A DNA stretch of 64,000 nt, taken from contig JBAIAA010000261.1 of NCBI GenBank assembly GCA_037893245.1, positions 992,001-1,056,000 of the forward strand, in the 5' to 3' direction. The first letter of the stretch is position 1, and every line of letters begins with the position of its first letter. The translations under genes were made by a program, and so were the position numbers. The notes beneath the pieces are model-generated. The model had not been told where the DNA came from. It saw only the letters and a program-made list of their open reading frames with translations, and made no database searches. Below are positions 4,901-64,000 of the stretch, in pieces. The stretch comes from Crossaster papposus (lineage: Eukaryota; Echinodermata; Asteroidea; Velatida; Solasteridae).

Positions 4901-7900
4901 AAGACAGTCTGTCTCTCTCTAATTCCCAGAGTCCGTGCTCTTTTACGTGTTAGATATACTAGCGCACAGACAAATGACAGCTAGACAACTATTGTTGTTA
5001 CCTGGTTGGAAAGACAGTGCAGTCTGTCTCTTTCTAATTCCCAGAGTCTGTGCTCTTTTACGTGTTAGATATACTAGCGCACAGACAAATGACAGCTAGA
5101 CAACTATTGTGGTTACCTGGTTGGAAAGACAGTCTGTCTCTCTCTAATTCCCAGAGTCTGTGCTCTTTTACGTGTTAGATATACTAGCGCACAGACAAAT
5201 GACAGCTAGATCAACTATTGTCGTTACCTGGTTAGAAAGACAGTCTGTCTCTCTCTAATTCCCAGAGTCCGTGCTCTTTTACGTGTTAGATATACTAGCG
5301 CACAGACAAATGACAGCTAGACAACTATTGTTGTTACCTGGTTGGAAAGACAGTGCAGTCTGTCTCTTTCTAATTCCCAGAGTCTGTGCTCTTTTACGTG
5401 TTAGATATACTAGCGCACAGACAAATGACAGCTAGACAACTATTGTGGTTACCTGGTTGGAAAGACAGTCTGTCTCTCTCTAATTCCCAGAGTCTGTGCT
5501 CTTTTACGTGTTAGATATACTAGCGCACAGACAAATGACAGCTAGACAACTATTGTCATTACCTGGTTGGAAAGACAGTCTGTCTCTCTCTAATTCCCAG
5601 AGTCTGTGCTCTTTTACGTGTTAGATATACTAGCGCACAGACAAATGACAGCTAGACAACTATTGTCATTACCTGGTTGGAAAGACAGTCTGTCTCTCTC
5701 TAATTCCCAGAGTCGGATCTGATCACTGATGGTTGGCGGAACAATTGGTACCTGGTGAAAAACAAAGTGAAGTTGGTTTGTCAATTCATACAAAGTTGGA
5801 GAACTTTTTCTACTTTTATCAATGGGGTTGCTATAATTAAAACCAACGTCAATTTAGACAAAGTTGGATAACTTTTTTGACTCTTATTAATGGGGTTGCT
5901 ATAAATAAAACCAATGTCAATTCATACAAAGTTGGAGAACTTTTTCTACTTTCATCAATGGGGTTGGTATAAATGAATCTAACAGGGGCATTTCCCCCTA
6001 GGTCATTGGTGGCAATGTTGCACACTCCATTCCATATAGGAGTCATGCGCTTGTTCAGATTCGAGTATAGGGCGGTGCAGCATTACGGCTGTTGACTTAC
6101 TTTGGAACGCATTTCTGTGTGTGTGTTGGTCCGTAGGTAATGGAGTATCTGCTCGGCCGTAATGCCAAACGACACTGCTTGCTGTACACTCTCTCTTGTA
6201 ACCATGCCGACAGACAGGTTAGGAAATCTACATGCAAACAGAATTTACCAAACAAACACTTAGCTGCTTAAAGGTAGGATAAACAAATATCAAACAAATT
6301 TACTGCCGATTTATGATGAAATGTAAAAACTTATTTAAAAATAAATAATGATTTTAGTCATCCAGCAAAAATAGATAGATATCCTTTAATTGTTACGAAA
6401 AATTAAATTTTATAACAAAAACAATCGAAGGGGTTGGGTTCTTGGCCTATTGAGCTCAAAGACAGCAGCCGAGTTATATAACACTCGCACACTGGTAGCA
6501 CATATGTTACCGGCTCTACAAAAAGGTGTATTATGTCGCAAAATAGTAAAATTTAGTTGTAGACATGGTTAAAAATCCCACAATGTAAGCTTTTATTTGG
6601 TATATAATGGAGCTCGATAGCCCCTCTCATGTTGGAGATATGACGTGTTTACATATTGATTACTTTCTTGGAGTTTCAATTACACAACTGAGAAAACAGG
6701 CTTTGAAATAGCCGGCTCTGTTGTACTACAACAGAACGATGCACACAAAATTGTCGTTTTTGCCACTTTATTGATCAAAATTTCTTTGAAAGAAACCTGA
6801 AACTGTAGGTTATTAAAGATGTCATTCATGAAAAAAACTAAAAATAACATTTTTAAAAAGAAAGTTTTACCTCTCAACGTTGAGAGGGCCATTACATGAT
6901 AGTGCACAGCGCGACGTAATACACCTTTTTGTAGAGCCGATTACATATATGATATCACACAGGGAGTGAGATATGCGCTGTTATACACAAGACACGTGAT
7001 CATTCTAGACCAATAAAAATACAGTATCCAACACAGGGATATAACAATGCCATTTAGCAGTAATTTTACTCTAATCTGAAAAAGAAAGCGATGAAAAAAT
7101 TGAATCTTTTAATTATCACAACATTTGTGACCTGTTCCAACAAAACCCGGTTAAAGTCGCATAATGTGTTTTATTGCAATGTACTCGTGAAGTAATTTCA
7201 GGGTGGATTTTACCAATTTGAGGTTTTAGGGTTTGCTGAATCACAAACTATTATTCTACATTCTCCCCAAATTTGAACATGATCCGTCACTCAGAAGTGT
7301 AATTTTTGTCGATTTTGTGAAACAATTGTGTATAGAAATAATACGCTTTTATGAACTTCAAAGCTGTTTATCTTATAATTAGGTTGTAAGTGTTTTATCA
7401 CTAAATCCTTCTGCCAGAGGAGATAGAGTGGGGGTACATATGTAAATGATACATCATTTTAAAGCTAAAAACCTAGAGAATTTGAAAAAAGCAAAATCTA
7501 AAAACCACACATTTTCAACTTTGTCCGGCTTTCGTTGGAGCAGGTCACATTTTAATCTTATGCCAATAAAACCAAGAATTACGTCTGTTTGTACCCCAAT
7601 CATTGCTACAGTTATAGTTCCCCTCATCCTGAGCCACGCAGAGTTTAACGGGCTCTTAATTGTCGCCCTCAAACCCTGCGGACATTCGCAGCAATCATTA
7701 AACAAGTTGGCCAATACATGATATGAACGTCCACCCCTGGTAAAATGACAATTTCTACCACTATACTTAATTTTATTGGCGTTTACTTAGCTTTTCAGTC
7801 TTTTATGTTTCTTATTCTGTATAATATATAATAGCAAAGCTTTATTTCACGTTCTGTACGTTAATTTCTACAATTTTTCCGATCAATTAAATTTTTTACG

Positions 7901-10900: not shown

Positions 10901-13900
10901 GTCCTGGTAAAAAACAAGAATTTGTGCACATTAAAATAGGGACAAAAGTGTGAAGTTATATATGTATTTGTGTCTGGGAGAGAATGCATGGTTAATAACG
11001 ATTGTTGAGTGAAGGCCGGATCATACTTCACGCTAAAGCGAATTCGATACAAATTGAAAATTTGCCGGAGTTGAAATTTGTTTAACTTTTGCAAATTTGT
11101 AGCTGTGAAGTTGCAAATTCGTGTTTGTGTTGGCTATCACGCCGTGTATGAACCGGGCTTAAAGGTAGAATACACCATTGGTAATTGCTTGAATTATCAT
11201 GAATGGGTGGGTTTGGGAGGTTGTATTTTTATAGTAAATATCATTTAATTGACCTGTACGAAGTTTTACAATCATGGATGCCGAGAAAAGCACGAAAAAC
11301 AGCATTTGTTTTCAACCCACGTCGAGCAGTTATTTTTGTTTTTTTCGCGATCGCCGTCAGCGATCGCGAATTTTTCTTTATAAAATTTTATATTTCGGAA
11401 TAATTACAAGATATCTAGCGCAATAATTTTGCTGGATGCCTAGAATCATTATTTACTTTCAAATGGGTAAGATATTTCTTAATAATTTGATAATAAATAT
11501 TTTTGATATCTGCAAATGATGTATCCTACCTTTAAAGTGGGCATTAGACAGTTTGGCCACACATGACCATACATGGAATTTATGTATTTTGGCAGGATCC
11601 GGAATTTTAAGAAATTAAACCAGATTTGAAATCTTGCCAGTGATAAACTAAAGTCATATTGTTATGCACGTAAAAGTCATTATTGTTGACCGGTGCTTTA
11701 AGTTTTTATAAATCAAGCTAAATATTGATTTTGTAAGTTGTTTATCACCTGCCGCAATTCGGGTCACAGTCTGACCTTATGCAGTACTGACCTTGTTTAA
11801 TCAGTTCGCGCCGGATGACGTATATAAACGCAAACATTTCCCCAAATTCAAAACGGATGACGCATAAACACGCCAAGTTCAAGTTCGGAAATGTATGTCA
11901 GCAGCGAGCAAGGCCGGGAATGCGTGGGTGTGCTTCCCGGCACTATCGGCCTGAACCCGCTTCGGATCGAGTTTCGTTAGAAATAATCCGCCCCTCGGCT
12001 CGGCGATGTTAAAATAATCCCGGCGCGAACTGGTTAAAGGTAGGATACACCATTTGCACCTATCAAAAATGTTTACTTCCGAATGATTAAAGAATGTCTT
12101 TACTTATTTGAAAGTAAATAATGATTTTAGGCATCCAGAAAAATTGCAAAACGGTACCCTGTACATGTAGTTAGTTCCCAAAAATGGCAAATTTTAGTAA
12201 CAGTCCCACAGTCAGAATGCAGATTATGTCGATTACCTTTCCTAAACTTGAAAAGCTGAGTCGAAAGAGGAATGACAGAGCATCCACAAGATCCAGTCCT
12301 CTTGACTGAAATGGCAAAACAACACAAGAGGACTTCAATATTTGAACCGTCCTACTACTATAACTGGGTCATTCCATGAAGTTGGGACACGGCACGATGC
12401 TACATCCCAATTATGTCCAGAACCTGTTGAGAACTTGTGAGGCAATTTCAGAACATAACTACACAGTTTTGCTATGCATAGAGCCAGCTATATCATAAAT
12501 GTTAGGCGTTCTGGCAAAATGAGACGGAACTGGGCACAAGGCATAGTGGAGAAAACTGCAAAATAATGAAAAATGAGAGATTTGTTTGACCATGGCAACA
12601 TTTTAATCTCAGAAGTTCCTTTGATCTTACCCCTTCCATTTTTGTTCCCCACCCAGGTTTGCACCCCTCTACCCCATTGGTCTGTCTTTTAATCTACCCA
12701 CTCTGACCTCATTGTTTTATTCATTTGGCCTAATCCTATTTTTGTTGGTTGTTCCACTCCACTCTGTTATTTCTCTTTTGTGTTTTTTCTCCCAACCATG
12801 TTGTGCATCATGCTTGTATGTCCCCCTTTATATGTTTGTTTCATGTACACAGCCATTTTGAAATATTAGGCCCTCTTAACAGATTTAAGTTCCTTTTAAG
12901 CCTGCGAGTTTTGCAGTTATCAAATTAACCGTGTAACCATTGTTTTGCGGTTACGGTTGACGGTTAACCGTAACCAACATTTAAAAAAATAAAATTAAAA
13001 ATTAAATTAAAAAAATTAAAAAATTGGCTTGCATTGCATATCTAATTAGCGCTGCTTCATCAAGGAATTATAGTGTGTGCGCGTAGTACGTGTTGATAAT
13101 CGCAGTTCTGCGATTGCTATTAATGTCTGCATTAAATCTTATAGGCCGACGGGCTATTATGTTAGATAAGCTATCAGAAATGTCCATACAAAATTTAATA
13201 AATTGTACTATTTGTGACCTGCCTTTTTGAAGGTTAACTGAAGAGGAAAAATGTAACCGTGTAACCGTTTGAACGGTCGGTTAACCGTGTAACCGTTTAA
13301 CCGCTGCAGGCTAAGTTCCTTTTCAGCTTGTTTATAACAATCTGCACTACTGCCACATCAGTCAGCTTTACTTTAAGGTGTAAACTGCAAATTCACGAGC
13401 GTTTTGAAATATATTTCGTTTTCTAGGTAGCCTGGTTTCATTTTCAAAATTCCTAACAAATCACGTTCAAAACCTTTCGCTTTCATCATCTGAAAAGTTA
13501 CTATGCAGTTTGTAAAATTAGCTACGGGTACTCAATTCCATAATCTGGAATTGGTCGGGTACTCGAGTATACGGTTCCGAAGCAGAGCCCTATCACCCTT
13601 GAATAGAACTTCTGTTTTTGCATCGCGGCCGCGCCGTGCATTGGGACGAATAATTCAATGTACAACAATCCACCAATCAGATGACAGGGATTTATTCAGG
13701 CGTTTCATAATTAACCCTAACCCCCTAGGCTCTCGCACTAGGAAGCATACCAAACCTAACAAACTTCAACAGCTCACACATGTTCAGTAATTTTTGGTAC
13801 ACTGTACTGAACCTAACAGTACTAAACCTGCCAAACTCCAACAGTTGAAGTTTTATTGACTTGGTACAGTGATAACTGGCCAGTGGTATTATGTGTTTTA

Positions 13901-24385: not shown

Positions 24386-27300
24386 ATGTCTTCTACACAC
24401 ACGTTACCTACTCCAGGAGTGACTTCAACATTAACAGAAACGCAGAATCAAAGATCGGTAACGACGATAAATTATGTGCCGAGTTCAGACAACTCGACCA
24501 CGGGACAACTTAAGTTCAACTTGTCAAGTTGTCTCATCAACTCTCGATCTCATGGTCGAGTTTCACCATGGAGCTCCATGGTTGTACAAAGTCGAGTTGT
24601 CTCACCAGTCAAGTCATATATGTGCCCCTATTTAGCGCTTATTGCTCATGCCCCTATGAGTATGAATTACAGAATTCACAAAACGAAAAACCGTCATCAG
24701 ACTGTTTGTCAAGTAGTTGCGATAATCGTAACCCTCCATCGGCGGTCGATGGAGGGTTACGATTATCGCAACTATTTGTCAAGCACCTTTATATTTTGAG
24801 CACTTTTGCTGCTTCATTAAATGATAACAATTTACAACTGACAAAATGGTCTATTGACACTGTTGTTCCTTTAAAACAAGAAGTAGGCCTATAAATTGTT
24901 TATCATACTGTCTTTTCTTCAACAGCCATCAGTGACGTTGAAATTGAGAAAGCCCAAGTCTGATAAGAAAGTCAACTGGAAAAATGGTGTCATAGATAAT
25001 GAGCACATGGGCAAAAAGAAATCAAAATGTAAGTAATAAATGTGAGGGGTTCTGGCAAAATGAGAACTGGGCAGAGGTTGAACTGAGGATTCTCGGGTAT
25101 TAGGAACGAGGGATGAAATTCTTGTTGTAGTGCCGTTTGTTGCGCTTCAATCTGACATTTCGTTAACAAGTTATGACTGTTTAAAGTTGGCATTTATTAA
25201 CATGTCGCGGAGAAAAAAGTTGAGAAAAAGGTCTTTGAAATTTCGAGTTTTGTACATGAGTACTTTCATACCATTTTTTTTGCAAAACATGATGTAGTTA
25301 CCAGGCATACCAAAGATTACAAATATAAATCTTGGAAAAAAAATCACCTATTATATTATTCATTATTTTACAGTTTTCTCCACTGTGCCCAGCTCCGTCT
25401 CATTTTGCTGAAACGCCTCACATGTGCAATGTATTTGTTGCACCTGAAAAAGCATCATCCATTCTTGGACAATTTGAAATTGAACTTCTCCTAAATATAC
25501 GTGTAGTAGGTAGGGCTGTGCATTGGAATCATGTACCCGCGACTCGTCCTAACCCGCGACTCGTCCTAACCCGCGACTCGTCCTAACCCGCGACTCGTCC
25601 TAACCCGCGACTCGTCCTAACCCGCGACTCGTCCTAACCCGCGACTCGTCCTAACCCGCGACTCGTCCTAACCCGCGACTCGTCCTAACCCGCGACTCGT
25701 CCTAACCCGCGACTCGTCCTAACCCGCGACTCGTCCTAACCCGCGACTCGTCCTAACCCGCGACTCGTCCTAACCCGCGACTCGTCCTAACCCGCGACTC
25801 GTCCTAACCCGCGACTCGTCCTAACCCGCGACTCGTCCTAACCCGCGACTCGTCCTAACCAGCGACTCGTCCTAACCCGCGACTCGTCCTAACCCGCGAC
25901 TCGTCCTAACCCGCGACTCGTCCTAACCCGCGACTCGTCCTAACCCGCGACTCGTCCTAACCCGCGACTCGTCCTAACCCGCGACTCGTCCTAACCCGCG
26001 ACTCGTCCTAACCCGCGACTCGTCCTAACCCGCGACTCGTCCTAACCCGCGACTCGTCCTAACCCGCGACTCGTCCTAACCCGCGACTCGTCCTAACCCG
26101 CGACTCGTCCTAACCCGCGACTCGTCCTAACCCGCGACTCGTCCTAACCCGCGACTCGTCCTAACCCGCGACTCGTCCTAACCCGCGACTCGTCCTAACC
26201 CGCGACTCGTCCTAACTCGCGACTCGTCCTAACTCGCGACTCGTCCTTACTCGCGACTCGTCCTTACTCGCGACTCGTCCTTACTCGCGACTCGTCCTAA
26301 CTCGCGACTCGTCCTTACTCGCGACTCGTCCTAACTCGCGACTCGTCCTAACTCGCCCTAAGTAAAATTGTTTGACATCTGCAAATGGTGTATACTACAT
26401 ATACCTTTAAACATACACGTACTTTAATGTTTAAAACGAGGAAAACAAATTCATCAATAGCCTTTGGTCAAAAAAGCCAAAACAAGTAAAAAATGTACGA
26501 TTTTTAAACGATTTTGTTTAACAATTTTACCTTGTGTTTTGAGGAACACCCCTCCAGTGATTTTGATGGTATTTGCCTCAAACACATACCCTTATATTGA
26601 AAATAACGCGCTTATTTCACCCGCTGCTTGAGATGGCATGATGGGTGTTACAAAGCACATTAGGACTTTTAATATTTTAAGTATATAGTTGGTAGCATTC
26701 CGTTGAGGTTGCAACTAATGAAAAGTCATGGACCAGACTTCACGGGAGTCCAAATTGAATGTGACACCGAAAAGGACATGTTTTATCGACTGTTTAACCC
26801 TAACCCTCCCAAATCCTCCAAATTCCTCATTGCAAAATGCAGGATTTTGCAGGATTGAGGTCACTTGGAGTTTGATGCATTGCAGGATTTTGCAGGATTG
26901 AGGTTACTTGGGGTTTTACCCCTGCAGGAATATGGAGGATTCAGGTTATCAGGCTGAATGTGACACACAAGGATTTTGCAGGATTGAGGTCACTTGGAGT
27001 TTGATGCATCGCAGGATTTTGCAGGATTGAGGTTACTTGGGTTTTTACTGACTGCAGCCAGGGCAAGACTGCAGGATTTTGCAGGATACAGGCTGTATGG
27101 TCACCAGTGACCAATATTGGAGGATTTTGCAGGATTCAGGTTACTTGGAGTTTTAACAATTTAGGAATTGGAGGATTTGCAGGATTCAGGTTATGTGTAA
27201 GTAAAAATGGGTAGGGAGTTAGGGTTAAAGGTAGGACACACTATTTGCAGATCGTGATAAAAACCACATAAGAACCACTACCCGACGCCAATTGAAAACG

Positions 27301-27922
27301 AACGCCGTTTTTCGTGCTTTCCTCAGCATCCATGATTGTAAAACTTCGGACAGGTCAGTTAAACGATATTTACTATAAAATACAAACCCCCAAATCCACC
27401 CATTCCTGATAATTCAAGCAATTACCAATGGGGTATTTTACCTTTAACCAGTTCGCGCCGGGATTATTTTAACATCGCCGAGGCGAGGGGCGGGATTATT
27501 TTTAACGAAACTCGATCCGAAGCGGGTTCAGGCTGATAGTGCCGGGAAGCACACCCACGCATTTCCAGCCTTGCTCGCTGCTGAGTGCTGACATACATTT
27601 CCGAACTTGAACTTGGCATGTTTATGCGTCATCCGTTTTGAATTTGGGCAAATATTTGCGTTTATATAAGTCATCCGGCGCGAACTGGTTAAGCAAACCC
27701 ACATGTCGGTCTCTCGACCAATAAGAATAACTGAATTGCCTCACCGTCACAGGTTGTTGCATATATGAGAAGCCCCGCATGTTTGGGGAGAGCTCATCAA
27801 GCGATGACAGCGATGACGATGACGACTGTAAGATGTGCAGACACCAGAGGAAAGGCAACTACGAGAAACCACCGCCCGAAGGGACGGAGCCAGAAGGAAC
27901 AGAGGGCGGCAGCACTGCTTAA
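24386..27922 (+). CDS. PPP1R11: Protein phosphatase 1 inhibitor-3 (PPP1R11/Ypi1 family), complete, 3 coding exons
   Basis: Small, largely disordered inhibitor of the PP1 catalytic subunit. Exons 24386-24457, 24926-25028 and 27753-27922 join in phase (0, then 1) and encode 114 aa ending in TAA; human is 126 aa. Diagnostic pieces are the PP1-docking RVxF-type motif KKVNW inside [14 protein letters not shown], then [19 protein letters not shown]. The Cys-Cys-Cys is created across the exon 2/3 junction and matches the human protein exactly there. An acidic Ser/Asp run ([12 protein letters not shown]) follows, then [10 protein letters not shown]. The start is supported by the TETxNxRS stretch just before the exon-1 donor. 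Intron 2 holds a roughly 48-copy 17-bp satellite and several MITEs; a MITE also begins 27 bp after the stop. It shares a short upstream region with GTF2H4. Confidence 0.95.
25535..26357. repeat. 17-bp satellite, about 48 copies, in PPP1R11 intron 2
   Basis: Unit acccgcgactcgtccta. Copies from 25535 to about 26210 are nearly identical (one visible substitution near 25861). Over the last 140 bp the unit changes to actcgcgactcgtcct(a/t). GC-rich against an AT-rich intron. Confidence 0.97.
26797..27215. repeat. Degenerate repeats of gcaggattttgcagga flanked by ttaaccctaaccc
   Basis: Several imperfect copies of gcaggattttgcaggattgag alternating with ggtcacttggagttt, between ttaaccctaaccct on the left and gagttagggttaa on the right. 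It lies in PPP1R11 intron 2. Similar aggattcaggtta sequence occurs near 45710-45760 and 46550-46630. Confidence 0.7.
27225..27447 (+). mobile_element. MITE family A, internally deleted, sharing TTAA with family B
   Basis: TTAA at 27225 and 27444. The right TTAA is also the left flank of the family-B element 27444-27692. Confidence 0.85.
27444..27692 (+). mobile_element. MITE family B, full copy
   Basis: TTAA on both sides; ends 60 bp before the acceptor of PPP1R11 exon 3. Confidence 0.9.
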
Positions 27923-35766: not shown

Positions 35767-38014
35767 GCCCCGCATTCTCGAAGCATTTCTTCCAGTTTTC
35801 CTTCGTCGTTCAGCTTCTTGATCTCTGTGCCTCCACCGATGAATTTTCCCTTGATGAACACCCTTGGAACCTGTACAAAAATGCAATCAAATAAAAAAAA
35901 AGTGCATCAGTAAAGAAGAGTTCATTTTAGTGGTAAACTGCAGCACTAACTTCTGCTCATATAAACAGCAAGTGATCCAATGGTAAATATGTGACCTGTC
36001 ATCACAAAATGAGCGTAAAGTCGACAAAATCAAAAATTGAGATATGGGTATTTCTAAATTATGTGGAAACAGAGCTTTCCATTGGTATAACACTTGGAGG
36101 TTTGATACTCAATATCTTTTTTATTTTAATTTTTTTAGTCTGGAGTCTTAATACAGAGATTATGAGAAAACGGGCATTTCTTGCAAGAAATTGTGTGAAA
36201 AGCATAGAAAGGCATAGTCAAAATTGTCTCAAAAACTAATTTTGTTTTTATCTGATCGTCCTGAAAAATTGGGAATTGATTGTTGGGGATTTAGTCTTAA
36301 AAAAAACCCATATAATCTCAAAATCGACCACCCCTTCAAATTTTGACTTTGACTGGCCGTACTGGGAAATCACTCCGTACGACTTTACGCTCATTTTGTG
36401 ATGACAGGTCACATATGTCACGCATTTGCCACAGTTCCAAGAAAAATAATGTAGTACTCTGACGCTTCTTCAGCGGTGTTGTACAAAGTCCATGGAGAGT
36501 CGAGAAAAGTTGTCCAAGTATTTCTAGTCACACACAAATCAAACTGCCAAAATTTGCGTCTGGCGGGGTTTCTAGCCAAAATACCTTGGAGGGATAGGGG
36601 TAATTTGGTCAAGTTGACAACTAAAAATCTCTGTAAAAAAGTCAAATGCGGACAAAGCTTTAGGTTTAAAGGTATATACACCATTTGCAGATATCAATTT
36701 GTTGATATCAAAGATTAAGAAATATCTTACTCATTTGAAAGTAAATAATGATTCTAGGCATCTAGCAAAATATTTGCGCTAGATATCCTCTAACTATTCT
36801 GAAAAATAAAATTGTATAAAGAAAAATTCACGAAAAAACAAAGATAACATAAGAATAACTGCTCGACACCGGTTGAAAACAATCGCTGTTTTTCGTGCTT
36901 TTCTTGGCATCCATGGTTGAAAACTTCAGACAGGTCAGTTAAACGTTATAAAATCTACCCATTCATGATAATTCAAGCAATTACCAATGGTGTATCCTAC
37001 ATTTAAATGTAAATATTGATTGTAGGCATTCAATATCTTTTACAGGTTAGATATATCCTGTAATTGTTCCGAAAATTTGAATTTTATTTTTAAAAAAAAT
37101 TGATCACCGGATGCCAATCTAAAAAAAACAAGAACAACATAAGAACTGCACGGCGCTGGTTGAAAACGAACGCCGTTTTTTTCTTGCTTTTCTCAGCATC
37201 CGTGATTCTAAAACTTTGGACAGGTCAGTTAAACAATATGTGACCCCGCTCCATCAAAATCAGGAATACCGGTAAGTCTCGAAATGACTTTTTGGTGAGA
37301 AAGGAAAATTTCATAAGCTTTCTAATGATACCCATCACAAGTGTGTATCTGATTAGGTTAACGAGTTATGGTCTGATGAAGATGACAGGTGTATATTTAT
37401 TTGCCGAATCCACATTCCAAGAAAAACAGCTTTGAATTAAACAAAATTGACCAAAATCATATGGACAGCGCACACAAATCCTCTTTATTTTCACCTTTAT
37501 TTATGGTTTTTACATACAAGACATTAATGACAATAATCTGTGATAACTAAACTTCCTAAAAATACAATGTTCAGAAAATCGAGTTGGTCACGATTTTCAA
37601 CCATGCGTTCACTTCAACGGCCAATTGCGTAAAACGGCCTCAGTGACTTATTCCTGATGGAGCGGGTCACATATTTACTCTAAAATCCAACCCCAAAAGC
37701 CACTCCTTCCTGATAATTCAAGCAATTACCAATGGTGTATCCTACCTCTAAAGAGCACAAAGTATACTTACAGTGGTTTCCCCGGTCATCTTCCCCAGCA
37801 CACTCTGTATGCGTTTGCCATCGTCGCGCTTATCCAGTTCCACCGTCGCATAGTTGGCATTGTGTTCATCCAGGGCATTCTTGGCCATTGTGCAGTACGG
37901 ACATTGCGTCTTGGAGAACACCACTACAATCTTGTCGTGGAGGATATTTTGCACCAGCGTCCCCTCCGGCGAGTCCACGGGGACGTCAGGGATCGGGGAA
38001 AAAAAGTTACCCAT
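35760..38014 (-). CDS. GLRX2: Dithiol glutaredoxin, GLRX2-like, 2 coding exons
   Basis: Glutathione-dependent thiol-disulfide oxidoreductase. Exons 38014-37772 and 35870-35760 join in phase 0 to give 117 aa. Visible elements are the CPYC active site in FSKTQCPYCTMAK, the TVP cis-proline motif created exactly at the exon junction (MTGETT|VPRVF), and the glutathione-binding GG in KFIGGGTEIKKL. The TMAK after the active site is more like vertebrate GLRX2 than GLRX1, although GLRX2 in vertebrates usually has CSYC; the symbol is therefore a best fit. The N-terminus MGNFFS fits an N-myristoylation pattern (Gly2, Ser6), an inference. A good acceptor (tctattgcag) ends 2 nt before the ATG on the minus strand, so an upstream non-coding or alternative exon is likely. 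The stop codon lies in a 19-bp tandem repeat. Its nearest neighbour upstream is the divergent ABHD16A. Confidence 0.93.
35988..36416. mobile_element. MITE family D2 (tgtgacctgtcatcacaaaa)
   Basis: Inverted ends tatgtgacctgtcatcacaa / ttgtgatgacaggtcacata extend about 35 bp, to gagcgtaaagtcg. Near-identical copy at 59925-60335. In the glutaredoxin intron. Confidence 0.92.
36666..37006 (+). mobile_element. MITE family A, full copy
   Basis: TTAA on both sides, in the glutaredoxin intron; directly followed by another interrupted copy. Confidence 0.88.
37003..37752 (+). mobile_element. MITE family A interrupted by a family-D element
   Basis: Left part 37003-37234 and right part 37674-37752 belong to family A. 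Between them is a 439-bp family-D element (37235-37673). The right end is only 18 nt from the glutaredoxin exon-1 donor. Confidence 0.8.
37235..37673. mobile_element. MITE family D4 (tgtgaccccgctccatc)
   Basis: Ends aatatgtgaccccgctccatc / gatggagcgggtcacatatt. It is inserted in a family-A copy. A related, reshuffled copy lies at about 19407-19862. Confidence 0.88.
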
Positions 38015-50956: not shown

Positions 50957-53900
50957 AGAGAAAAGTTTGGAAAAAAACCGTTTGACTTTGAGCGTACGAG
51001 TTGCAACGTGATTGGCTCATTGCGGAAAGACAAATTCCATCCCCCAAAATACTGCATGTCGGTGCACTGCCGTATACGAACATAGAAATGTACACGAATT
51101 ATATGTGACGACCGCCTTATACTGCATATAGTATCTAGAAAGACTAGCGTGTGAACGAGAACAATGGAATGACGTACGTATGACGTAACTAAACAAATTT
51201 GTGTTCTTTTTCCCTAATTTGATATATCGTTTATTCATACAGTACATACTAGGCATAGTTGAGTAAAGTTGTGATAGTAAAGCTTTCTTTTACTAACGTG
51301 TCGCTAACAGGCGCACTGTCGAATACAGTGATCTTTGGCAAAGACTACACTCAAACTTTCTCTAGGTACATGTTCCTGCATGTCTACTACCGCCGTGCGA
51401 TAGTTCCACGATTGCTTTGCCAAGCACATGCGTACTAGACTGTAGCACAAGTAGACTCATAAATACTTTTTGGATAGCTGCAAAGGTATACTGCAGGTTT
51501 AATGCAACGATCTCTGTGATTCAACAGGTCATTTGCTGTGAAGGAAATGCTGGCTTCTATGAAGTAGGCTGCCTGGTGTCACCATTAGAAGGTACGGTGT
51601 TTATCCGCCCATTAATTACTGACTCGCCCCTGCCACATCTGCCCAGTGTCGTGCTGTAGACCCCATGCATATTTGGCAGTTATCATCTTAATCATAAATG
51701 ACCGACCAGATGGGTCTTATACGAGGGGCGATTAGTGAGTTGTGGCTTAGGGTATGAGCAGTTGGTTTTAGAAAATCAAACACATTTATTGTTCATTCAA
51801 CATAGTTTCTTCCTATGTTAAAACACATATTGTCCTCTATTGTTATACGTCCCCTATTTCAATAAATGCCTGTAACCAGCCTTCTGAATGCGCGAAATAT
51901 AATACGGCACTGCTATGATTGATGAATAATGATCAAGCAAACAACATCATTCATTCAAAATTCACAACGTCTTTATTTATATCTTTAGTAATTATTATTA
52001 GTCCATTGATCCTGGAGCATACAGATCCGTAGAAGCGGCTATTTTTGGCCCCAGGAAGTGGTTCACACAATAATAACGGCATCATTTGAGACAAAATGGC
52101 GATCGTCGAGCTTCAACTTCGGGAAAGGGTGCCAAACCAGGAGAATAAGCCTGATTTTGAGCAGTATCGAATCCCCACTTTTTGATGGCAGCCATGGCCA
52201 CTATAGACATAAGGGCCAGAGGAGCATTGTCATTGTTGAAGAGCACTCCTCTTGTCAGCTTCTCATTTTGGGCAAAATGATGATCGCCGAGCTTCTCAAC
52301 TTCGGGAAAGAGTGCCAAACCAGGAGAATAAGCCTGTGTTTGACCAGTTCAAATCCACATTTCTGGATGGCAGCCATGGCCACTATAGACATAAGGGCCA
52401 AAGGAGCATTGTCATTGTTGAAGAGCACCTCTCTTGTCAGCTTCTCATTTGAGGCAAAAAGGCGATCGCCGAGCTCCTTCAACTTCGGGAAAGGGTGCCA
52501 AACCAGGAGAATAAGCCTGCGTTTGACCAGTATCAAATTCACATTTCTGGATGGCAGCCATGGCCACTATAGACAAAAGGGCCAGAGGAGCGCAATCATT
52601 GTGGAAGAGCACTCCTCTTGTCAGCTTCTCATTTTAGGCAAAATGATGATCTCCGAGCTCCTTCAACGTTTGGAAAGGGTGCCAAACCAGGAGAATAAGC
52701 CTGCGTTTGACCAGTTCAAATCCACATTTCTGGATGGCAGCCATGGCCACTATAGACATAAGGGCCAGAGGAGCATAGTCATTGTTGAAGAGCACTTCAT
52801 TTGTCACCTTCTCATTTGAGGCAAAATGGTGGTCGCCGAGCTCCTTTAACTTCGGGAAAGGGTGCCAAACCAGGAGAATAAGCCTGCGTTTGACCAGTTC
52901 GAATCCACATTTCTGGATGGCAGCCATGGCCACTATAGACATAAGGGCCAAATGAGCATAGTCATTGTTGAAGAGCACCTCTCTTGTCAGCTTCTCACGC
53001 CTAACCGTTTTGATTTTCTTCCGTATAGCTGTCTCAGGAGATCTGCATAGTAGGCCCCAGTGGTAGTGTGACCTTTCCAAACCTTCAGTGTAATCATTCA
53101 ACAAGTTAAACGGCTCACAAATTCAGCGAAGACTGTATAGCTCATCTCCTTTTAGCTAATAGCCCACGAACTTATCGATCACCCCTCATGGGCTCTTGTC
53201 AGACTTGACTTGTTTGTGGGTCTCCACAGAGTACCGAATTTATAAACAAGTATTCAAGTTTGCTTTCAGTGTATCGTAAACCATATTTTTATTTCATTTC
53301 TAGCAAAGTACTCGGTGTTGGGCTGGAACCATCCAGGCTTTGGTGGAAGTACCGTAAGTGGTTTCATTCTTAATAACCCTAACCCCTAAAGCCCCAGTCA
53401 CACCGGACTCCCGGACCATCCCGGACCACCCCGGACGTGGTCCGGGGCAGTCCGGGGTCCGATCCTTGTTGGGTCCTTGTTCGTCCGGGGCGGTCCGGGA
53501 TGGTCCGGGATGATCCTTGGCGGTCCGGGAGTCGGCCCCGGACGTTTTAAAATGTTTAAAACATCCGGGGTGATCCGGGGCGATGGCTTAATCCGGGGTG
53601 GTCCGGGGTAGTCCGGGGCGGTCCTTGTTGGGTCCTTGTTGGCTCCGTGTTCATCCTTAGTGCCTCCTTGTTCATCCTTGTTCATCCTTGGGCATCCGGG
53701 ATGGTTTATTCGGACACGGCAAGGCTACGGATGACCCCGGACGAACAAGGACCATACAAGGTTCATGCCGGATTGACCAAGGATGGACAAGGATGGACAA
53801 GGATAAACAAGGATGAACACGGACCATCACGGACCCAACAAGGTGCCAACAAGGACGGGCACGGTGCAACAAGGATTGAAGACGGAAATCGGGCCGGATG

Positions 53901-56900
53901 GACACGGATGGACACGGATGGACACGGCACCGATACGGTTGCCACACGGACCAGCAAGGACTGGCACGGACCAGCACGGATGAACACGGTACAACACGGT
54001 TGCAGTCCGGGGCGGTCCGTGTAGCATCCGTGTAGCATCCGTGGCAGTCCTTGTTGAGTCCGGGGCGGTCCGGGGTGATCCGGCATAGTCCGTGTCTCTT
54101 CCGTGCTGGTCCGTGCCGGTCCGGGGTCATCCGTGTAGACACCGTGTGCGGTCCGTGCTTGGTCCGTGTCACCTCCTTGTTGATCCGTGCTCATCCTTGT
54201 TGACTCCTTGTTCGTCCGTAGTGCTTCCTTGTTGGGTCCGGCGTGAAGGAGTTTTGACGGTCGTCGGTCGCTTTTTCGCTCCGGACCACCCCGGACTGAT
54301 AAAACTGTGGTCCGGGGTTGTCCGGGGTGGTCCTGGGTGGTCCTTGTTGGGTCCTTGTCCGGTGTGACCTAGGCTTTACTGATTTTGTGTGTTTAAATCT
54401 AATTTAAATTAAAACAATAATTTTTTATTTATTTTTTTAAATCAGCAACCCTGATATTTCCTGAGAATGAAGCCAATGCAGTGGATATTGTCATCCAATA
54501 TGATATCCACTGTCTGGGGTTTGAGCTCAAATATATTGTACACTTTGCCTGGTCAATAGACACTCCTATACACCTAGTCACATATATCTACCAAGGCAAT
54601 ACACCCAGTCCCAAATATTCTAGTTTTTCCTATACCAGGGCAAACCATTTCCTGAGAATGAAGCAAATGCAGTGAATATTGTCATCAAATATGCTATCCA
54701 CCGTTTGGGGTTTGAGCTCAAAGATATTGTACTATTTGCCTGGTTAATAGACACCCCTAAACACCCAGTCACATATTTATATATTCCCCTGTTTATTCTG
54801 TACCAGGGCAAACCATTTCCTGAAAATGAAGCCAATGCTCTGGATATTGTCAGCCAATATGATATCCACTGTCTGGGGTTTGAGCTCAAAGATATTGTAC
54901 TCTTTGCCTGGTCAATAGACACTCCTATACACCTAGTCACATATATCTACCAAGGCAATACACCCAGTCCCAAATATTCTAGTTTTTCCTATACCAGGGC
55001 AAACCATTTCCTGAGAATGAAGCAAATGCAGTGAATATTGTCATCAAATATGCTATCCACCGTTTGGGGTTTGAGCTCAAAGATATTGTACTATTTGCCT
55101 GGTCAATAGACACCCCTATACACCTAGTCACATATTTATATATTCCCCTGTACCCGGGTAAACCATTTCCTGAGAATGAAGCTAATGCAGTGGATATTGT
55201 CATCCAGTATGCTATCCACCGTTTGGGGTTTGAGCTCAAAGATATTGTACTATTTGCCTGGTCAATAGACGCCCCTATACACCTAGTCACATATTTATAT
55301 ATTCCCCTGTTTATTCTGTACCAGGGCAAACCATTTCCTGAAAATGAAGCCAATGCAGTGGATATTGTCATCCAGTATGCTATCCACTGTCTGGGGTTTG
55401 AGCTCAAAGATATTGTACTATTTGCCTGGTCAATAGACACCCATATACACCTAGTCACGTATTTATACATTCCCCTGTTTTTCCTGTACCAGGGCAAACC
55501 ATTTCCTGAGAATGAAGCAAATGCAGTGAATATTGTCATCAAATATGCTATCCACCGTTTGGGGTTTGAGCTCAAAGATATTGTACTATTTGCCTGGTCA
55601 ATAGACACCCCTATACACCTAGTCACATATTTATATATTCCCCTGTACCCGGGTAAACCATTTCCTGAGAATGAAGCTAATGCAGTGGATATTGTCATCC
55701 AGTATGCTATCCACCGTTTGGGGTTTGAGCTCAAAGATATTGTACTATTTGCCTGGTCAATAGACACCCCTATACACCTAGTCACATATTTATATATTCC
55801 CCTGTTTATTCTGTACCAGGGCAAACCATTTCCTGAGAATGAAGCCAATGCAGTGAATATTGTCATCAAATATGCTATCCACCGTTTGGGGTTTGAGCTC
55901 AAAGATATTGTACTATTTGCCTGGTCAATAGACACCCCTATACACCCAGTCACGTATTTATATATTCCCCTGTTTATTCTGTACCAGGGCAAACCATTTC
56001 CTGAGAATGAAGCCAATGCAGTGAATATTGTCATCAAATATGCTATCCACCGTTTGGGGTTTGAGCTCAAAGATATTGTACTATTTGCCTGGTCAATAGA
56101 CACCCCTATACACCCAGTCACGTATTTATATATTCCCCTGTTTATTCTGTACCAGGGCAAACCATTTCCTGAGAATGAAGCCAATGCAGTGGATATTGTC
56201 ATCCAGTATGCTATCCACCGTTTGGGGTTTGAGCTCAAAGATATTGTACTATTTGCCTGGTCAATAGACGCCCCTATACACCTAGTCACATATTTATATA
56301 TTCCCCTGTTTATTCTGTACCAGGGCAAACCATTTCCTGAGAATGAAGCCAATGCAGTGAATATTGTCATCAAATATGCTATCCACCGTTTGGGGTTTGA
56401 GCTCAAAGATATTGTACTATTTGCCTGGTCAATAGACACCCCTATACACCCTGTCACGTATTTATATATTCCCCTGTTTATTCTGTACCAGGGCAAACCA
56501 TTTCCTGAGAATGAAGCCAATGCAGTGGATATTGTCATCCAGTATGCTATCCACCGTCTGGGGTTTGAGCTCAAAGATATTGTACTATTTGCCTGGTCAA
56601 TAGGCGGCTATACAGCGAGTCTTGCAGCAGAAGAATATCCAGATATAGGAGGTGTTGTAAGTACTTTCTATCCATTCTCTGCCATGCATTTGTATACAGA
56701 CTGGTAAAACACATTCGGATCACATTTTGACTAGTTAAATTCTGTCAACAGACAAAAGAGATAGTTAGTAGATTTGCAGTTGACATATTCATCACCTTCA
56801 GTCAAAGAATGGCTATACATAGGGTGGGTCAAAAAAAGTTAACCCAAGTTTAAGGTGATTGTCCACCTACCTACTAAAATTCCAGAGAATTTGTGTTTAC

Positions 56901-59900
56901 CTCGTGTTGATTGGGGAAGACAATCAATACTAACTGGTGTAGCGGTTTGGGATTTTTTTTCAGGAGCTGGGTGGTGCGTGAATGAATATTCATGAGAAAG
57001 AGCAATGGCAACTCGTATACATTAAAGAATTATAAAGAATTATAAAGAATTATAAAGAATTATAAAGAATTATAAAGAATTATAAAGAATTATAAAGAAA
57101 GGCTTTCTCAACCAACTCGCCAATAGCATAGTTGGTAGAGAGGAGAGCTATGGATCGAAAGGTCTGTGGTTCGAATCCGACTATCGTTAACGTTTGTCTT
57201 TTTCTTCGACAAGTTTTCTTATGGGTTATTTTAATAATGATTATAGTAAATAATGATTATAGGCATCCAGCAAAATGTTTGTGCTAGATATCTTGTAATT
57301 GTTACGAAAAATTCAATTTTGACGGCGACTGCGAAAAACCCCCAAAACCACTGCCTGACGTCGATGGAAAACGAACGCCATTTTTCTTGCATTTCATAGC
57401 ATCCATGATTGTAAAAATTCAGACAGGTCAGTTTAACGATATTTACTATAAAATACAACCCCCAAATCCACTCACTCCTGATAATTCAAGCAATTACCAA
57501 TGGTGTATCCTACCTTTAAACACCCTTTTTTGTGGAGCCGGTCACATGTTTCTTACAATACGGTGTTTCTTACAATACGGTGATATGGAAAATAGTACAT
57601 GTAGTTTGTATTTGTGCTTTATTACTTGATAGATTCTAGATGCAACGTTTGATGATCTAGTGCCTCTAGCGATTCCGAAGATGCCTGCATTCATGAGTGA
57701 GTGGAGTTGTTCGAGACATTCTTGTATAAATAAGTTTGCAGAACTAAACTGAACTGTATCTCACACAAGGTAAATAGTGCGGTTAGCAAATGTATCTTAA
57801 AAGTTTGAATAGACCATTTGTTTTCGCTGTAATTTTCATAAATGGACAGGTAAGAACAGGGGCCAGTTCCATAGAGTTGCTTTTAACCAGTTTGTACCGG
57901 AGGACGTATATACACGCAAAGTTTTCTCCAGATTCTCCAGAGCAAGGCCGGAAATGTCTGTCGGCAGCGAGCAAGGCCGGAAATGCGTGGGTGTGCTTCC
58001 CGGTACCATCGGCCTTAACCTCTGATCGAGTTTAGTAAAAAAATAATCCCGCGCCTCGGCTCAGTGATGTTAAAATAGTTTTGGCGCAAACTGGTTAAGC
58101 ACAAAACTTGCTTAAGCACAAAACTTGAATTGCTTAATAAAACAAATTCGGTTATGTACATTATTTGTGATTGGTATATATTGGTATTTAGCTGTTTTTA
58201 GCTTAGCATAACAATCGCGTGGAATTTTGGCTTGTAACCAGATTTTAATAAGCTTGTCTGCTTAAGCAGCTCTATAAAGTTGGCCCCTGGTTCATACAAA
58301 TGTTGAATTGAAATCGAAGTCTCAAAATATTGTTTACTCGGAATATGCATCATTCACAGAGCTAAAACTTTCCAAGGTTAGTTGTCGAACACCTTTCTAT
58401 ATATTTTGAGTATGTTTGATGCTTCAAACGATAAAAATGCACAACTGACAAATGGTCTATTATCCCTTTAAACTTGCAATGGTAAAGAGCTGGTTCATAC
58501 CCGGCGCGAACTTGAATTTGTGACGTCACAGCAGGTTTTGCGCGATGCGATTTCGCAAAAATGTAACACATTTTCGCAGCGCATGCTTCGTGACTTCAAG
58601 TTCGCATCGCATTTGTGGGATGTATGAATATAAAATATTGTGACGCTGACCAGTTTTTTTAAAGTTTTGTGTTAGTCTGGTTCCTTGTCTTCCTTCAGAC
58701 GAAACAGCAATTTATGGATGTCGGGGTATTCTCAGGTTTAGGAAACCAGACTAGTTGGCTTGCACCCATTCACGAATGTGTTCACAGTGTTGCAAACAAA
58801 AATGTGGACTAATTAAATTGAATAAATTGGGGGCAGTGTTTAGAAAATAGTCAGGTATTTCTAACTATTGCTGGCCGGCAATCGTTGGAAATTGATACGA
58901 AATTCCACTTTTCTTGACAGCCACAACACGCCAGGTGCCCTGATGGTTAACCAGTTCCCGCTGGGATTATTTTAACATCACCGAGCCGAGGGGCGGGATT
59001 ATTTTTAACGAAACTCGATCCGAAGTGGGTTCAGGCCAATAGTGCCGGGAAGCACACCCACGCATTTTCGGCCTTGCTCGCTGCTGACAAACATTTCCGG
59101 CCTTGCTCGTTGCTGACAAACATTTCCGGCCTTGCTCGTGGCGTGTTTATGCGTCATCCGTTTTGAATCTGGGGAAAACTTTGCGTTTATATACGTCATC
59201 CGGCGCAAACTGAGGTTGACCTCAGTATGCCCAACCGACGTGGTCTCCGCTCGGAGCATAACTTAAAAGTATAACTTAAAACATTCAAACATGCAGGTGA
59301 TAAAGCTTTTTCTGTGGCTGGACCCAGATGCTGGAACTCAATACCTCTCAACATTCGTCATTGTAACTCGTAAACGTAAACTCAAATCATATCTGTTTTC
59401 ATCCTAGGTTTGCTCTCATCCTTCATTTTGCAATTTCATCATTTTCTGTTTACGTGGAGTTGTTCTCAAGCGCATTGAAACCTTTGGAAAAATGCGCTTT
59501 ATAAATGCCATTATTATTATTATTAATTATTATTATTATTATGTCAAGTAAGATACATGTATTTCATAATAGTCAATAGTTTTACATTTTGGATGTTTGT
59601 AAATAGTGTACTACTACCTTTAACCTATCTAGTGTCCATTTTGAAACAATGATAGTATGGTAAGTTTAGCCACTGATATCTTCAATGTCTTATATCCAAT
59701 ATCTTCCTAGGCAGTTTGGTTGTACACTCCATACGCACATACATGAATCTGAACGTAGCCGATCATCTCTGCAAGTAAGTACTATTTCGCGTGTGTTCAT
59801 TTTAACTACCTACTGCCTCTCCAGGGTATTGGACCAAATCTGGCAAAACAATGTAAAACAAATATGTATGAACTAATGGAACCACCACTGAAGTGTTGGT

Positions 59901-62900
59901 TGATGTTGATGGACTTAATAGTACATATGTGACCTGTCATCACAAAATGAGCGTAAAGTCGGCAAAATAAAAAAATGAGATATGGGTATTTCTAAATTCT
60001 GTGGAAACAGAGCTTTCCAATGGTATATAACACTTGGAGGTTTGATACTCAATATTTTTTTATTTTTATTTTTTAGTCTGGAGTCTTAATACAGAGATTA
60101 TGAGAAAACGGGCATTTCTTGCGAGAAATTGTGTGAAATTGAAAGAAAGGCATAGTCAAATTTTTTTTGTATCTGATCGTCCTGAAAAATTGGGAATTGA
60201 TTGTCGGGGATTTAGTCTTTAAAAAAACCATATAATCTCAAAATCGACCACCTCTTCAAATTTTGACTTTGACTGGCCGTACTGGGAAATCACTCCGTGC
60301 GACTTTACGCTCATTTTGTGATGACAGGTCACATATGTGACCTGGCACCACAAAATGAGCAGAAAGTTGCACACGTCAAAAACGAGTTATTGGCCGAAAC
60401 GTCTATTTTTCAAGTGGGAGGTCGGTTTCGAGTTTCTTTATCATATCAAAACAATTTATAGCTCAATTAAAACTCTAAAGTGTGTTTTTTGTGGCTGAAT
60501 TGCTTTGGCATGGTTCACAGACTTTGTACTCCGTTTTTCTCAAAACAAGGGAGCATGACTTTAGCTGTTTCAAAAGAGCATAGCGGCGGCTAGGAATAAG
60601 CTACAGCAACACACAATACATCAGTTGAAAGCTTAGGACATCTCCTTTCTAGAAATGTGATAAAGTCAATTTTGTGGTGCCAGGTCACAAAAAAATGCAA
60701 TCGTGGCCGTTGTTCCAAGGCATTTTGACATATTAATGAGGTTTTTGTTTGCGCTTCGAGTATGAGTATGATCTGAGTGCATGGCGCGCAGGCAACTATT
60801 AATAGTGGCCAACCATTGATTGTCGATCACCGGTCCGTTGCCAGTCCTTCGTCGCCGGTTCGTCACCGGTTCGTCACCGGTCCGTCGCCGGTCCGTCGCA
60901 GGTCCGTCGCAGGTCCGTCGCAGGTCCATCGCCGGACCATCGCCGGACCATCGCCGGACCATCACCGGACCATCACCGGACCACGGTTACGGAAGGTACT
61001 GCAATATTACCATGTATTGCATGTTGATGATTGTTTTTATATTCTCCCCTATAATCAATAACTGCTTCTAATATCTGTTGCAGATATCCTGGACCTATTC
61101 GATTAATACGGCGATCAAGGGATGAAGTCATTACTACATCGTAAGTGACCTATCAACGGTTAGGCCAAAAAAATAGTTCTGCTTTTGGTTACCCGGCCCA
61201 TAATTGTTTTCAGGTAAAAAACACAAAATACTACATTTACCTTTTAAGGTAAAATACACCATTGGTAATTGCTTAAATTATAAGGAATGGGTCAAATTGG
61301 GGGCTTGTATTTTATAGTAATTTTACAATCACGGATGCCGATAAAATAAGCAAGAAAAAAACGACATTCGTTTTTCAACCGGATTCGGGCAGTTGTTTTT
61401 ATGTTGTTTTTTTTCTTTTATTTTTATAAAATTCAATTTTTCAGAACAATTACAGGATATCTAGCGCACTAATTTTGCTGGATGCCTGAAATCAATATTT
61501 TTACCTTTAAATTATTAAGATATTTCTTAATAATTCGGTAGTAAATTTGTTTTGATATCTGCAAATGGTGTATCGTACCTTTAAACCATGACTACACGTT
61601 GACACACCTACATATGATAGACACTGAAAAAGGTTCGCTACCTACCTACCCCGTTTTCAAATGCCTTGTAATAGAAAGCAGAACTGTTTTTTTGCCTTAC
61701 AAATATCAACAAATCTGAAAATGTTTTTATTCTCCGCTACAGCCTGTGTGCCATAATTTCTGTCTCATTTTGCAAGCAATGCCTAAGATATTTCCCCCGA
61801 GATTAAACAATTCTTAACTTTTTTTCTGCAATTGTTTTACTTCCACAGTTTGACTCCAGACATAGCCACAAACAGAGGCAACAATCTCCTGCTGAAACTC
61901 TTTGAAAATAGGTTGGTATCAAAAAAGAGAATAGGAGGGGTGATTGATAAGTTCGTGACCTATGGTAAAAGGAGTCGCTTTTAGAAACTCGAGAAACAGA
62001 CTTTGTCCAGCGGGAATGAAGCATACGGATTCCTTCTGTGTCATATGGTACCAAAATTGTGATGGTGCAGTGCCCGCAATTACCGCAAAGGTAAGATACA
62101 CCATTGGTAATTGCTTGAATTATCATGAATGGGTGGATTAAATGGGTAAATATCGTTTAACTGACCTGTCTAAAGTTTTTCAATCATGGATGCTAAGAAA
62201 AGCAAGAAAAACAAGAACAATTTGGTTCGTTTTCAACCGTTCTTGTTTTTTGCGCAATCGCCGTCCGGCAATTTCTAATAAGTAAGATATTTCTTAATAA
62301 TTCGGTAGTAAAATTTTGTGATATCTGCAAATGGTGTATCCTACCTTTAACGCCTCAGAAGTCGAGTAACTTTGAACAAACTGTAGTGAGTAATAAGCTT
62401 ACATAATTTATAATTTATTTCTTTTGCACTATATGCATTCCTTAAGTTTTGCCACTTCTTATACACAGTATTTAGAGAGTCCCAAATGTTTGGACTAACC
62501 ATAACCCCGGGCTGGACTCAAACCTGCAACCTGCAGAATTAAGCCCCAGTCCCACACTTTGCCGATTTTTTGTGTTTTTTTAGTTTTTAGCGAACCACAA
62601 GGAAACAGTACAAAATTGGTACAACGATTTAGGCCACGAATAATTTTAAAAACTGCCACGGGATTGCCATATCTAATTGAGAAACGACAAAGAAGAGGAA
62701 GGATTACAATGGGCGAATGTGATTAAATCGTTGCGGTGCAGCGACAGTTTTGAACATTTCAAAACTGTCGTAGCGCCTCCGCGATTTGTGACGATCTGCA
62801 CGATGCGCAAGAACAAACTAAAAAGAAACGTCTAAATGCCAGATTGTTGTGGCTTTACCCGCAAACCTCGAGTTTAGTGCTCCAGACTACGAGGCCCCAA

Positions 62901-63386: not shown

Positions 63387-63560
63387 GCACCGCTATACCG
63401 AACACCGCTATACCGAACACCGCTATACCAAACGCCGCTATACCGAACGCCGCTATACCGAACGCCGCTATACCGAACACCGCTATACCGAACACCGCTA
63501 TACCGAACACCGCTATACCGAACACCGCTATACCGAACACCGCTATACCGAACACCGAAC
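63387..63560. repeat. 15-bp tandem repeat (accgctataccgaac), ABHD16A intron 16
   Basis: About 11 copies with few substitutions. It passes directly into the 17-bp array to the right, sharing the core accgaac. Confidence 0.93.
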
Positions 63561-63574
63561 ACCGCTACACCGAG

Positions 63575-64000
63575 CACCGAACATTTGGCTGTACCAAACA
63601 TTTGGCTGTACCGAACATTTGGCTGTACCGAACATTTGGCTGTACCGAACATTTGGCTGTACCGAACATTTGGCTGTACCAAACATTTGGCTATACCGAA
63701 CATTTGGCTGTACCAAACATTTGGCTGTACCAAACATTTGGCTGTACCAAACATTTGGCTGTACCGAACATTTGGCTGTACCAAACATTTGGCTATACCG
63801 AACATTTGGCTGTACCGAACACTCGGCTATACCGAACATTTGGCTGTACCGAACATTTGGCTGTACCGAACATTTGGCTGTACCGAACACTCGGCTATAC
63901 CGAACATTTGGCTGTACCAAACATTTGGCTGTACCGAACATTTGGCTGTACCAAACATTTGGCTGTACCGAACATTTGGCTGTACCAAACATTTGGCTAT
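63575..64000. repeat. 17-bp tandem repeat (accgaacatttggctgt), runs off the window
   Basis: About 25 copies in view with variants aac/caa and tgt/tat, plus two cactcggctat units that recur about 70 bp apart. Its full length is unknown. Confidence 0.93.

Follow-up and report, generated by a model that had tools for sequence, protein, structure and literature searches.

A tandem array of partial exon 11 copies in intron 10 of the sea star ABHD16A gene, probably an intronic minisatellite of the "mirage" type

The 3' part of intron 10 of the ABHD16A gene of the sea star Crossaster papposus holds a tandem run of 12 partial copies of the boundary between intron 10 and exon 11, followed by the true exon 11. 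The gene lies in a 64,000-nucleotide stretch of the forward strand (GenBank assembly GCA_037893245.1, contig JBAIAA010000261.1, positions 992,001 to 1,056,000), here called the window, in whose own numbering all positions are given. In a tblastn search with a Patiria miniata protein (P0001), residues 1–456 of 543 aligned collinearly on the plus strand between 40206 and 63328, the remaining residues falling outside the window; the same search also gave two weak chance hits. The best matches to a query joined from the window exons were the ABHD16A-like proteins of Patiria miniata (68%), Acanthaster planci (63%) and Asterias rubens (59%), and a Pfam scan made on P0001 detected PF22990 and PF00561. 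Judged by this homology, the host gene of the array is the ABHD16A lipase gene, and tblastn and the splice sites bear out both the gene name and the exon numbering of the initial annotation, which had been made from the letters of the sequence without database searches.

The splice sites on both sides of the array were read directly. Exon 10 is bounded by ...ttctag/CAAAGTAC...AGTACC/gtaagt, and its 3' end (GGA AGT ACC/gtaagt at 53353) is in phase 0, as the initial annotation had it. Exon 11 is bounded by ...gtaccag/GGCAAACC...GGTGTT/gtaagt and is followed by an intron of 976 nt. When exons 2–16 with 40-nt flanks were compared with the window by blastn, no other ABHD16A exon was found to be arrayed; the remaining matches were seven short dispersed repeats (exon 3 flank) and one 21-nt match (exon 15 flank).

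Tandem Repeats Finder reports the array at 54633–56603 with a period of 168, 11.7 copies and a score of 2698, together with a higher-order period of 495 bp. The array is real and far above chance expectation. Its unit consists of the acceptor-bearing end of intron 10 (the last ~50 nt) and the first 37 codons of exon 11, and the successive copy-to-copy spacings are 191, 168, 191, 159, 168, 168, 159, 168, 168, 168, 168 and 168 (Table 1). The exon block common to the copies comprises 111 nt, or 37 codons (GKPF...AWSI); it is followed by a tail of 57, 48 or 80 nt that ends at the start of the next copy. The initial annotation had counted about 12 copies, which agrees with the 12 found here, and 38 shared codons, one too many. 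It gave the unit lengths as 168 or 159 bp, both multiples of three; both lengths are present, but two more units measure 191 bp. By eye, copies 1 and 3 have 80-nt tails (54559–54638 and 54918–54997) in which the intron end looks duplicated in nested fashion, with TACACC.AGTC occurring twice and a decayed inner acceptor, CTACCAAGGCAA.

Table 1. Positions of the ABHD16A exons, the array copies and the dispersed repeat in the window
Feature	Position	Strand	Remarks
Exon 10	53304..53353	+	Phase 0 end, donor gtaagt; tblastn with P0001 and splice sites read directly
Intron 10	53354..56491	+	3138 nt; houses the array
Copy 1, 191 nt	54448..54638 (start approximate)	+	5' edge truncated and diverged; 111-nt exon block 85–88% identical to those of the others
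Copy 2, 168 nt	54639..54806	+	AG kept; frame meets stop at 55032; S36L, D13N, Q17K
Copy 3, 191 nt	54807..54997	+	AG kept; frame meets stop at 55032
Copy 4, 159 nt	54998..55156	+	First of the in-frame acceptors; open frame of 553 codons up to 56656
Copy 5, 168 nt	55157..55324	+	Acceptor AG lost; CCCG/GGTAAAC, weakly donor-like
Copy 6, 168 nt	55325..55492	+	In-frame acceptor; splice-site sequence matches the true one over 33 nt
Copy 7, 159 nt	55493..55651	+	In-frame acceptor with 3 of 33 nt unlike the true site; same exon block as copy 4
Copy 8, 168 nt	55652..55819	+	Acceptor AG lost; exon block identical to that of copy 5
Copy 9, 168 nt	55820..55987	+	In-frame acceptor identical to the true one
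Copy 10, 168 nt	55988..56155	+	In-frame acceptor identical to the true one
Copy 11, 168 nt	56156..56323	+	In-frame acceptor, same as the true one; 99% identity to true exon in the exon block
Copy 12, 168 nt	56324..56491	+	In-frame acceptor identical to the true one
Authentic exon 11, 165 nt	56492..56656	+	Nucleophile motif AWSIGG, donor gtaagt; 91% identity to P0001 residues 294–349
Dispersed repeat	57480-57519, 37712-37751, 36967-37006, 27408-27447, 11158-11198, 62087-62124, 2486-2535	both	blastn

Identity in the exon block is lowest for copy 1 (Table 1), 88–95% for copy 3 and 94–100% among copies 4–12 and the true exon, and neighbouring 495-bp blocks are set apart by 12 differences. Past AWSI the true exon continues with GGCGGCTATACAGCGAGTC but most copies with GACACCCCTATACACCYAGTC, and the main block ends at the catalytic serine, as had been claimed. 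A weaker likeness nevertheless runs on for ~18 nt: in copy 10, 12 of 14 nt past the serine (CTATACA..AGTC) match with a 2-nt shift, a level that random 57-mers from the window reach in a fraction of 0.00015 of 20,000 trials. The exon-derived part may thus extend ~18 nt beyond the serine with a 2-nt insertion, and the apparently exact stop may mark an insertion or deletion and not the duplication breakpoint. The divisibility of the unit length by three may therefore be incidental.

The acceptor AG is present at the homologous place in 9 of the 12 upstream copies (54639, 54807, 54998, 55325, 55493, 55820, 55988, 56156 and 56324); the initial annotation had assigned an acceptor to every copy, which holds for these nine and fails for copy 1, without AG at that place, and for the copies at 55157 and 55652, which read CCCG/GGT instead of CCAG/GGC. 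Six of the nine (54807, 55325, 55820, 55988, 56156 and 56324) agree with the true acceptor at every one of the 33 nt compared, 30 of intron and 3 of exon; the site at 55493 has 3 differences and those at 54639 and 54998 have 12 each. The last seven of the nine (AG/GGC) are in frame and stop-free to 56656, and the reading from 54998 to 56656 is open for 1659 nt, or 553 codons; when the coordinates were re-read, the initial annotation proved exact on both the seven acceptors and the codon count. From 54639 and 54807 the reading hits a stop at 55032. The 191-bp units (54448 to 54639 and 54807 to 54998) break the frame, as 191 is not a multiple of three. If the weakly donor-like GGTAAAC of copies 5 and 8 served as a donor, joining it to the next acceptor would, by hand reckoning, remove 167 nt and be out of frame.

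An open frame of this length could be taken as evidence of coding, and we rejected it as weak. The minus strand across the same array is open for 542 codons, so the openness is no sign of coding. With random 57-nt tails drawn from the window the frame stays open in 37.1% of trials, or in ~12% (0.124) when the requirement of a length divisible by three is counted, and a separate array in intron 9 (52082–52997, period 183) has an open run of 245 of 305 codons. No open run above 58 codons occurs in the 110-bp arrays or in the 17-bp array at 25535. The open frame is explained by the copying of a single open unit with a length divisible by three. A Pfam scan of the repeated open reading frame hit four families, the lowest whole-protein E-value being 3.6e-22; we take these hits as effects of repetition because no single matched stretch passes alone.

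Arrays of this kind have a precedent. In amphioxus, minisatellites extending across intron-exon boundaries were described as "mirages" in Adh3 and in the globin genes BflGb6 and BflGb9 (PMC3087553), with troponin C and similar repeats in PGBD5 as further cases (PMC3902484). According to the amphioxus report, the BflGb6 array likewise joins the 3' end of an intron to the 5' part of an exon, has units of 150–160 bp with AG/GT signals in many copies, and is homogenised in the interior of the cluster but not at its boundary (PMC3087553). The ABHD16A array is longer, with 12 upstream copies compared with 6 and 3 units in two BflGb6 haplotypes (PMC3087553), and differs further in its sea star host, in the frame open through copies 4–12 and in the 495-bp higher-order unit. 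The initial annotation knew of no description of such a structure, which holds for ABHD16A in the literature searched, whereas the structure type is the one described in amphioxus (PMC3087553). Our search found no ABHD16A or echinoderm case, the full texts of the sea-star and sea-cucumber genome papers not being covered.

Two other known systems share part of these features. Introns that arose by tandem duplication (Rogers 1989; Zhuo et al. 2007; Gao and Lynch 2009, as cited in PMC3087553) resemble the array in their duplicated splice signals. The weakly donor-like GGTAAAC in two ABHD16A copies belongs to that likeness; the difference is that the array gives no sign of new intron or exon use. 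Coding minisatellites are found within exons, for example in MUC1 and CEL. Those share with the array a unit divisible by three and an open frame, but their units are intra-exonic, whereas the full units of the ABHD16A array carry intron-derived sequence, an acceptor AG in 9 of 12 copies and frame breaks at the 191-bp units.

The three features of mirages that can be tested at the sequence level are all found at ABHD16A: a tandem array, a boundary-spanning unit with the authentic exon as the last one, and homogenised inner copies, from which copy 2 departs. We therefore class the array as a mirage, and consider it very probable that it is an intronic minisatellite spanning the intron-exon boundary which is normally spliced out and leaves the lipase unchanged. 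Growth of the array would be due to tandem duplication and to unequal exchange, the true exon forming its final unit, since the inner copies are near-identical, the 495-bp blocks differ at 12 sites, and copies 1 and 3 are diverged. As both flanking introns are long (intron 10, 3138 nt; intron 11, 976 nt), the splice sites would be expected to be paired across the exon (exon definition); the shift from intron to exon definition is placed at ~250 nt of flanking intron, and among exon-defined sites in human genes the closest pair across the exon is favoured (PMC9225289). By this proximity rule we infer that the acceptor nearest the donor at 56657, namely 56492, would be chosen over the decoys, giving the ordinary 165-nt exon in preference to one of 333, 501, 669, 837, 1164, 1332 or 1659 nt. 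Upstream in-frame acceptors would be used rarely or not at all, and the array would as a rule be removed together with intron 10. It is fair to describe the locus, as the initial annotation did, as a stringent test of acceptor choice, the last acceptor being the one that the rule predicts. In amphioxus, reverse transcription PCR suggested that regular splicing is undisturbed by mirages (PMC3087553).

Several observations weigh against this reading. Copy 2 lies near the upstream edge and is undiverged, with 98–99% identity to copies 4, 7, 9, 10 and 12, which makes the edge decay irregular. The proximity rule was derived from human genes, and its equal-strength tests concern 5' splice sites (PMC9225289). 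Of 18 distinct changes among the in-frame copies 4–12 and the true exon, 10 are synonymous, compared with 5.6 expected (P = 0.024 by a permutation test in which the changes were dealt anew over positions of the same base), and in the exon block alone 6 of 9 are (3.0 expected, P = 0.038). The exon block is also less variable than the tail (9 of 111 against 10 of 57 columns, P = 0.077). Weak coding constraint would also give such a synonymous excess, and the substitution counts speak, weakly, against a purely neutral reading of the array.

The comparison of synonymous with nonsynonymous differences had been proposed in the initial annotation, and besides the excess in the whole unit and the exon block it gives 4 of 9 synonymous changes for the intron-derived tail alone (2.2 expected, P = 0.156). 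In the open frame of the minus strand (frame 1) 7 of 18 changes are synonymous (P = 0.115), and the other four frames give P values of 0.62–0.98 for the whole unit. Measured against the true exon, the exon blocks of copies 4–12 show 6 synonymous and 3 nonsynonymous changes (binomial P 0.006–0.018 for kappa 1–4), those of copies 2–12 show 8 and 7 (P 0.009–0.033), and copies 1–12 from codon 4 onward show 7 and 9 (P 0.048–0.130). Changes private to copies 1–3 are divided 2:6 by hand count, against 6:3 in the in-frame exon blocks (Fisher P 0.15). No stop has arisen in the in-frame copies, and one is expected in 32% of trials only. All these counts are small and mutually non-independent, and the same pattern could arise if synonymous changes in the true exon had been transferred to the copies.

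Together with the seven in-frame acceptors, the 553 open codons and the identity of six AG copies to the true site, five of the six in frame, the weak synonymous excess favours a different reading, in which the array is sometimes spliced in. Upstream acceptors would then be used in some tissue or stage, and the lipase would gain a length-polymorphic repeat of part-exon, part-intron units of 53/56 residues before the nucleophile, with the in-frame copies under weak coding constraint. We consider such inclusion very improbable. Among 264 retrieved proteins, none of them known to be from Crossaster papposus itself, none contains a second copy of the 37-residue segment: 240 have one match and 24 have none at 14 of 37 ungapped identities. 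These comprise 203 distinct homologues (from the top 120 of 1142 matches in one search and the top 120 of 125 in another), mostly vertebrate judging by their names, and all 61 proteins of a third search; the repeat is thus absent from those proteins, which is not proof that Crossaster papposus never makes it. The one tail-like string among them, VTYLY in P0161, is located elsewhere in that protein.

The copies also carry changes at residues that are (nearly) invariant in the 203 homologues. D13N occurs in 6 of the 12 copies (2, 4, 7, 9, 10 and 12), and the 203 homologues have D in 197, E in 5, V in 1 and N in none. Q17K, in the same six copies, is matched by K in 4 of 203 homologues; A19D, in copies 1 and 3, by D in none; and S36L, which replaces the nucleophile in copy 2, by L in none, all 203 having S. 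The frame is broken by the 191-bp units, exons of 333–1659 nt are disfavoured under exon definition (PMC9225289), and the added units would sit in the hydrolase core before the nucleophile elbow. The polymorphic coding repeat put forward in the initial annotation is thus unsupported, given also the equally open minus strand, with the weak synonymous excess on the other side; owing to that excess, occasional inclusion keeps the small probability assigned to it here.

The decoy acceptors could also mis-splice a fraction of the messages, so that the length of the array tunes the level of ABHD16A. Acceptors identical to the true one would compete with it, messages spliced to 54639 or 54807 would run into the stop at 55032, and the amphioxus authors allowed for cryptic use of mirage sites (PMC3087553). 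Amphioxus mirages reportedly leave splicing undisturbed (PMC3087553, PMC3902484), and we regard such tuning, which would be compatible with an intronic mirage, as very unlikely. That the array is an assembly artefact, or has a wrong copy number through collapse or expansion of a shorter duplication, is likewise very unlikely, even though the BflGb6 mirage looked aberrantly assembled in the amphioxus draft (PMC3087553), as the copies show private changes, units of three lengths and a 495-bp super-repeat in which 12 sites differ, features not made by simple assembly duplication.

The window is rich in tandem arrays and other repeats. Directly upstream of the array, intron 10 contains a GC-rich foldback element (53387–54378) with many internal inverted repeats and with terminal inverted repeats TAAAGCCCCAGTCACACCGGAC / TAAAGCCTAGGTCACACCGGAC that match at 19 of 22 positions, counted by eye; from its sequence it looks like a non-autonomous DNA transposon. 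The intron 9 array (183 bp x 5) is overlapped by a 269-codon open run (52010–52819) and overlaps no recognised exon. Further minisatellites are located at 25535–26356 (17 bp), 3627–5714 (110 bp), 63388–63998 (15/17 bp) and 60850–60979 (11 bp). The short dispersed repeat listed in Table 1, with 85–90% identity, is present on both strands and also next to exon 3, on its 3' side (query start 43184).

As far as the literature searched goes, the ABHD16A array extends boundary-spanning minisatellites from lancelets to echinoderms, a new phylum for them. It also presents a natural experiment on acceptor choice, with a row of sites at different distances from the donor, seven of them in frame and several identical in sequence. 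Arrays of the mirage type have been proposed as a source of new introns (PMC3087553).

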